The notes below the pieces were generated by a model, which was not told the origin of the DNA, searched no databases, and saw only the letters and a list, made by a program, of their open reading frames with translations. From a virus: 20,120 nucleotides of DNA. Positions 1,144 through 17,628 of the stretch are shown here, one piece after another. Position 1 is the first letter of the stretch, and each line of letters starts with the position of its first letter. Made by a program: the position numbers and the translations under genes. The stretch lies in the IMG/VR virus record IMGVR_UViG_3300044911_001461, positions 1 to 20,120 of that record. One strand, 5' to 3'.

Positions 1144-1216
1144 GTCTGATGCCAATCAGGCTTAGGTGGCGACCTTCCGCATTAGGGTTATACCCTCGAA
1201 CCCATAAATGACGAGG
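1144..1216 (+). promoter_or_regulatory. Structured 5' leader of the capsid gene (hairpins plus possible pseudoknot)
   Basis: The leader contains a hairpin GTCTGAT/ATCAGGC (1144-1150 with 1155-1161, one G-T pair, loop GCCA) and a small hairpin AGGT/ACCT (1164-1167 with 1172-1175). An H-type pseudoknot is possible further down. Stem 1 is GGGTT (1185-1189) with AACCC (1199-1203). The loop segment CCTCG (1194-1198) pairs with CGAGG (1212-1216). Loop lengths of 4, 0 and 8 nt are typical of such knots. A competing hairpin AGGGT/ACCCT (1184-1188 with 1192-1196) excludes stem 2. The pairing is read from the sequence; a role in translation control or mRNA stability is inference. Confidence 0.55.
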
Positions 1217-14745: not shown

Positions 14746-14841
14746 TAGTCAGAACAGGATTCGAACCTGTATACTATGAGGATTACCCCATTTTACGTTC
14801 CTTGTACTTCGGAACAACGTCTACCATTGCGCCACCTGACT
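14746..14841 (-). tRNA. tRNA-like element 1, no canonical anticodon loop
   Basis: 96 nt. Acceptor AGTCAGG pairs with TCTGACT (7 bp, one G-T), discriminator A, no encoded CCA. T-arm ACAGG-TTCGAAT-CCTGT is perfect. The D-arm is GCG/CGT with AATGGTAGA in the loop. Between D- and T-arms are 46 nt instead of the usual 23 (class I) or about 35 (class II). They form a hairpin GTTCC/GGAAC with a 9-nt loop (GAAGTACAA) and a second hairpin ATGGGG/CCTCAT with loop TAAT, in the position of a long variable arm. The first loop lacks U33 and a purine at 37, so I assign no amino acid (a GTA triplet is present but not in a credible context). Possibly a decayed tRNA, a processing signal or a decoy. Confidence 0.6.
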
Positions 14842-17595: not shown

Positions 17596-17628
17596 CAAAG
17601 ATACAGCATTGTTTTGTTCCAATGCAAA
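17596..17628 (-). promoter_or_regulatory. Bacteroidota-type promoter inside the replication region
   Basis: On the - strand TTTG (17628-17625), 21-nt spacer, TATCTTTG (17603-17596), matching the Bacteroidota -33/-7 pattern. Predicted start of transcription near 17590, about 20 nt before the ATG at 17570. It separates the recombination and regulatory genes from the DnaB/initiator block upstream. Confidence 0.7.

Follow-up and report, generated by a model that had tools for sequence, protein, structure and literature searches.

A probable major capsid gene in a 20,120-nucleotide stretch of viral DNA (positions 1 to 20,120 of IMG/VR record IMGVR_UViG_3300044911_001461, hereafter the window) is preceded by a leader predicted to fold into two hairpins, H1 and H2, followed by an H-type pseudoknot with stems S1 and S2. 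Comparison of related leaders indicates that the stems are preserved by matching two-sided changes, and the fold is well supported. Concerning its role, we propose, at about even probability, that this is a cis-acting leader of the capsid mRNA, in which a protective 5'-terminal hairpin is combined with a pseudoknot module probably bound by a trans-acting factor. The fold derives from comparison, whereas the function is our interpretation. The first-pass annotation had drawn attention to the pseudoknot; H1, H2, an invariant core and the promoter are features that it did not contain.

Fold of the leader and its covariation

All elements lie on the + strand. H1 (1144-1161), a 7-bp hairpin with the sequence GTCTGAT-GCCA-ATCAGGC, is situated at the predicted 5' end of the transcript, and H2 (1165-1174) is GGT-GGCG-ACC with an invariant loop. 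Concerning the pseudoknot, the stems GGGTT/AACCC and CCTCG/CGAGG, which had been described as interlocking with loops of 4, 0 and 8 nt, are present in the sequence. S1 (1185-1203) pairs GGGTT at 1185-1189 with AACCC at 1199-1203. S2 (1192-1217) pairs CCTCG at 1194-1198 with CGAGG at 1212-1216, and is extended by a pair between 1192 and 1217, with C1193 bulged. This additional A1192-U1217 pair shortens L1 to 2 nt (AU) instead of 4. The geometry is thus that of an H-type pseudoknot, with an S1 of 5 bp, an S2 of 6 bp and one bulge, an L1 of 2 nt, an L2 of 0 and an L3 of 8-9 nt. L3 (1204-1211) is A-rich, crosses S1 and is 8-9 nt long in all leaders of the group closest to the window (clade I). The register of S2 was taken from RNAalifold. 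A plain 7-bp register considered at first was rejected, as one position was unpaired in three of the ten leaders and the next in eight, while the bulged register pairs all.

Judged from one sequence, the pseudoknot stands only a little above chance. Of 20,000 dinucleotide-shuffled leaders, 250 (1.25%) contained a 5+5 Watson-Crick H-type pseudoknot, several are present on each strand of the 20-kb window, and, with a simple stacking score and a flat pseudoknot penalty, one of 400 shuffles of the region scored as well as the pseudoknot of the window. The pseudoknot scores about -12 kcal/mol, and H1 and H2 jointly -11.2 kcal/mol; their sum, a rough measure in that two scores are added, is near the nested minimum of -22.3 kcal/mol. 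We accepted the pseudoknot on the strength of the comparison of leaders.

For this comparison, the fold comprising H1, H2, S1 and S2 was examined in ten distinct clade I leaders, which are near relatives. As a result, 99.5% of the cells were paired, and five pairs displayed compensated changes, two in H1, one in H2 (U-A to A-U) and two in S2. Cells changed on both sides numbered 14, against a shuffle mean of 4.1, a control that ignores relatedness, and a maximum of 2 in the slid controls. S2 was paired in 100% of the cells; its pair 1192:1217 is C-G in five leaders, A-U in three and U-A in two, and is broken in none of the ten. By parsimony on a poorly resolved capsid tree, the variable H1 pairs require at least 3 changes, pair 3 of H2 requires 5 and those of S2 require 1 to 5, and recombination among leaders could reduce the true number of events. 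The first-pass proposal that an H-type pseudoknot lies ahead of the probable capsid gene is supported, with covariation in S2. As regards covariation in both stems, the outcome was divided: S2 has its two compensated pairs, whereas S1 (GGGUU/AACCC) does not vary in clade I and draws its support from a more distant group, clade II, in which it is replaced by AGGG/CCCU.

Several other foldings and readings were discarded. The nested minimum-energy fold, which leaves out H1, showed no greater covariation than shuffles. A tRNA-like T arm (GGGTT..CGAACCC) is absent from clade II, and a kissing contact between the loops of H1 and H2 (GCC/GGC) is contradicted by the H1 loops of the other clades, which are GCTC, TCCCA or GCAA. 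A leader peptide starting from the ATG in H1 was also rejected, as the leaders of clades II and III, by reading, have no ATG. GCG in the H2 loop (1169-1171) could pair with CGC at 1178-1180; these letters are kept in all three clades and do not covary.

Relatives, downstream gene and promoter

Relatives of the capsid protein with 95-100% identity were present in 15 other viral contigs, and in a few further contigs the leader is located close to a contig end; for clade I, eleven distinct leaders were read. Clade II consists of the loci L047, L095, L108 and L114 and the contig-end copy L104, with capsid proteins 51-53% identical, and clade III of one record, L117, with a capsid 54% identical. 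In L104 (5447-5797), the capsid frame follows its relatives for about 40 codons only and then departs from them where the contig ends, possibly reflecting a chimeric assembly.

The letters of H1 differ in clades II and III, and its location is unchanged. In clade II, H1 is GTTACC-GCTC-GGTAAC or GTTACA-TCCCA-TGTAAC, the core is unchanged, and the pseudoknot is another one, with stems AGGG/CCCU and UCCCG/CGGGA, which 0 to 1 of 400 shuffles equal. In clade III, H1 (GUACU-GCAA-GGUAC) is followed by TAGGTGGCGACC, CGCA and a weak pseudoknot, with 18 of 400 shuffles as good. The distant clades thus appear to rebuild the same layout with different letters, convincingly in clade II and weakly in clade III, and both retain a core. 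The invariant core CTTAGGTGGCGACCTTCCGCATTA (1161-1184) is identical at 24 of 24 positions between the window and L047, whereas the fourfold sites of the capsid gene are only 0.45 identical between the two. A conserved single-stranded tail, TTTCAAACGCAAA (1219-1231), is predicted to be mostly unpaired from 1224 and is partly kept in clade III. The distance from S2 to the start codon is ~33 nt, an A/U-rich stretch in which 1224 to about 1243 is predicted to be mostly unpaired.

The element is found directly 5' of the probable capsid gene in every case and before no other gene. It occurs once per record searched, with the exception of one 39-kb record (contig IMGVR_UViG_3300043436_002351) that has the gene and leader near both ends in two slightly different variants, L012 and L014; perhaps the genome is circularly permuted and its assembly drew on mixed strains. 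Among annotated phage records, we found no relative of the capsid or portal protein with tblastn and no relative of the leader with blastn, and genome contigs contained no relative of the capsid. Two pattern matches in genome contigs were judged on reading to be due to chance, their surrounding sequence being unrelated.

The downstream gene (1251-2282, + strand) encodes a protein of 343 aa without a sequence match in Pfam or PDB. Structure prediction gave low confidence both times; the best structural matches of a model were capsid proteins, the P22 procapsid (E 0.36) and an HK97-family capsid (E 4.5e-3). In a related 39-kb record, G004, the gene comes after those for terminase and portal and another placed where a scaffold gene usually lies. 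Gene order and these weak structural matches make the product a probable major capsid protein. In the same record (L045/L046), an additional ORF of 153 aa (30524-30985, reversed orientation) separates the scaffold-position gene from the capsid leader; it is absent from the window.

A terminator-like hairpin with stem, loop and T-run (1086-1109) is present 3' of the upstream ORF (238-1062), and by reading also precedes the leaders of the other clades. It is followed by TTG (1110-1112), a possible -33 element, and, 19 nt further, by TATCTTTG (1132-1139), which fits the consensus TAHHTTTG of Bacteroidetes-type -7 elements (PMC6847099). Among the + strand boxes in the window, only this one has a TTG at 19 nt. 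A second TATCTTTG box, at 17603 on the - strand, has a TTG 21 nt upstream and a predicted leader without predicted structure.

A matching -7 box lies exactly 4 nt 5' of H1 in all three clades. In Flavobacterium johnsoniae, the -7 element occupies -12 to -5 (PMC6847099), and by this spacing the predicted transcription start of the capsid gene is G1144, the first base of H1. The 4-nt distance would thus place a hairpin at +1 and leave few unpaired bases, if any, at the 5' end, as in 5'-terminal stabilizers. A start downstream of 1185, which would have told against the pseudoknot, is not what the promoter predicts, as 1144 lies upstream. From G1144 to the start codon, the predicted leader measures 107 nt, long beside the median of 24 nt reported for F. 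psychrophilum (PMC9723704). Judging from the -7 promoter box alone, the host of these uncultured phages apparently belongs to the Bacteroidetes, and what we assume of its decay enzymes has the same basis.

Proposed function and alternatives

Taken together, the comparisons suggest that the leader very probably governs the lifetime of the capsid messenger or the efficiency with which it is used. H1, whose sequence is free and whose place at +1 is fixed, would shield the 5' end from decay enzymes. In E. coli, RppH and RNase E depend on single-stranded 5' ends and 5' structure stabilizes mRNA, and protection of mRNA 5' ends by such structures is documented in both E. coli and Bacillus (PMC3997798). 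The core and pseudoknot would constitute a specific module that further tunes stability or translation; their invariance suggests a specific ligand, most simply a protein. The module would leave the start region open, with the A/U-rich stretch leading to the start codon, and the net effect would be a long-lived, well translated capsid message. A protective leader agrees with the covariation of H1, H2 and S2, which rival folds lack, with the recurrence of the layout in other letters in clade II and more weakly in clade III, with a core conserved far beyond fourfold sites, with the constant 4-nt spacing from box to hairpin H1, taken together with the F. johnsoniae start rule, and with the restriction of the element to the capsid gene. 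On the other hand, a plain protector would need no invariant core, S1 is constant throughout clade I, and the pseudoknot is weak in clade III.

The core might instead serve an autogenous translational operator, in which the capsid (or scaffold) protein would block initiation by attaching to the core and pseudoknot, and free capsid protein would stop its own synthesis, a reading that we put forward tentatively. A precedent is gp32 of phage T4, which shuts off its own synthesis on gene 32 mRNA (PMC535899). An element placed before the capsid gene only, an invariant core suggestive of a specific ligand, and a pseudoknot from which, as in the T4 operator, a mostly unpaired A/U-rich tail extends to the start codon would all suit this reading; it is countered by a gene product that is not a single-strand binding protein, by the high output required of capsid mRNA, and by the literature searched, which shows no established case of a major capsid gene repressed by its own product. 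A more elaborate form, which we consider rather unlikely, is a new family of phage riboregulators of tandem pseudoknots (with the GCG/CGC pairing), to which the capsid or scaffold protein of the phage itself would bind, thereby setting capsid output where the host has no Shine-Dalgarno sites.

The first-pass annotation had also raised a switch between two forms, the pseudoknot and a competing AGGGT/ACCCT hairpin; as a riboswitch might, the leader would shift between them in response to a signal. The window does permit this hairpin (-5.0 kcal/mol), which includes three invariant pairs, and AGGG and CCCU double as the S1 strands in clade II. However, its closing pair is broken in seven of the ten leaders with no compensated change, the invariance of the three pairs is accounted for by S1 and S2, and there is no terminator-like alternative 3' of the pseudoknot. 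With no covariation beyond controls in the competing hairpin, switching is not supported, and we consider it improbable. Equally little speaks for an element other than a leader, such as a ribozyme, a processed small RNA, or a site acting at the DNA level in packaging or protein binding. A compact fold with an invariant core would be in keeping with these, and inverted repeats in DNA could also covary, but no Rfam family was matched, known ribozymes included, interlocked stems are sensible only in a single strand, and in the window no terminator-like site separates the fold from the capsid gene. As for complementarity arising by chance without function, the frequency of such pseudoknots in shuffled leaders (~1.25%) and their presence elsewhere in the window are outweighed by covariation and conservation across clades; the compensated changes make it very unlikely indeed.

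Relation to known RNA elements

The capsid leader of phage T7 gene 10 carries a 5'-terminal stabilizing hairpin on an abundant mRNA. The stabilizing hairpins of the ompA type (PMC3997798) resemble H1 in that they too begin an mRNA that is needed in abundance; here the hairpin precedes a conserved core and pseudoknot, and its stabilizing role is putative. The nearest functional model is the gene 32 operator of T4 and RB69 (PMC535899), also a phage leader pseudoknot, with a less structured, A/U-rich region of approximately the same length between it and the start codon. The likeness is one of layout, with no sequence relation claimed. The leader described here adds H1, H2 and the invariant core, and has no Shine-Dalgarno context. 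The pseudoknot and unstructured A/U-rich stretch are both found here, but the product of gene 32 is a single-strand binding protein, while in our case, judging by gene order and structural matches, the product is a probable capsid protein, with no Pfam match. For this reason, we do not class the leader with gene 32-type operators, though it may work like one.

The manA and wcaG (in cyanophages) and STAXI (repeated pseudoknots) elements, which come from comparative genomics, are likewise RNA domains supported by covariation, some phage-borne and some pseudoknots, and differ from the capsid leader in sequence, fold and gene context (PMC2864571). No Rfam 15 family exceeded its gathering cut-off in the leaders of the window, L047 and L117, representing the three clades. 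Elsewhere in the window, a tRNA match above the Rfam cut-off (32.4 bits) was obtained at 14746-14841 on the - strand; it spans 96 nt with a stretched middle part, was not called by ARAGORN, and may be a tRNA gene whose variable arm is long or that contains an insert. The literature searched, in which few subscription journals are represented, names no comparable RNA in a capsid leader. Pseudoknots in phage mRNA leaders are not a new idea; the present family, together with the gene that it precedes and the layout anchored to a promoter, appears to be new.

Little is known of structured leaders that act on tailed-phage capsid genes. Bacteria without Shine-Dalgarno sites must adjust initiation by other means, and a compact leader supported by covariation and tied to one capsid gene provides a direct, testable case. 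The capsid leader may also prove a useful expression part for Bacteroidetes genetics.
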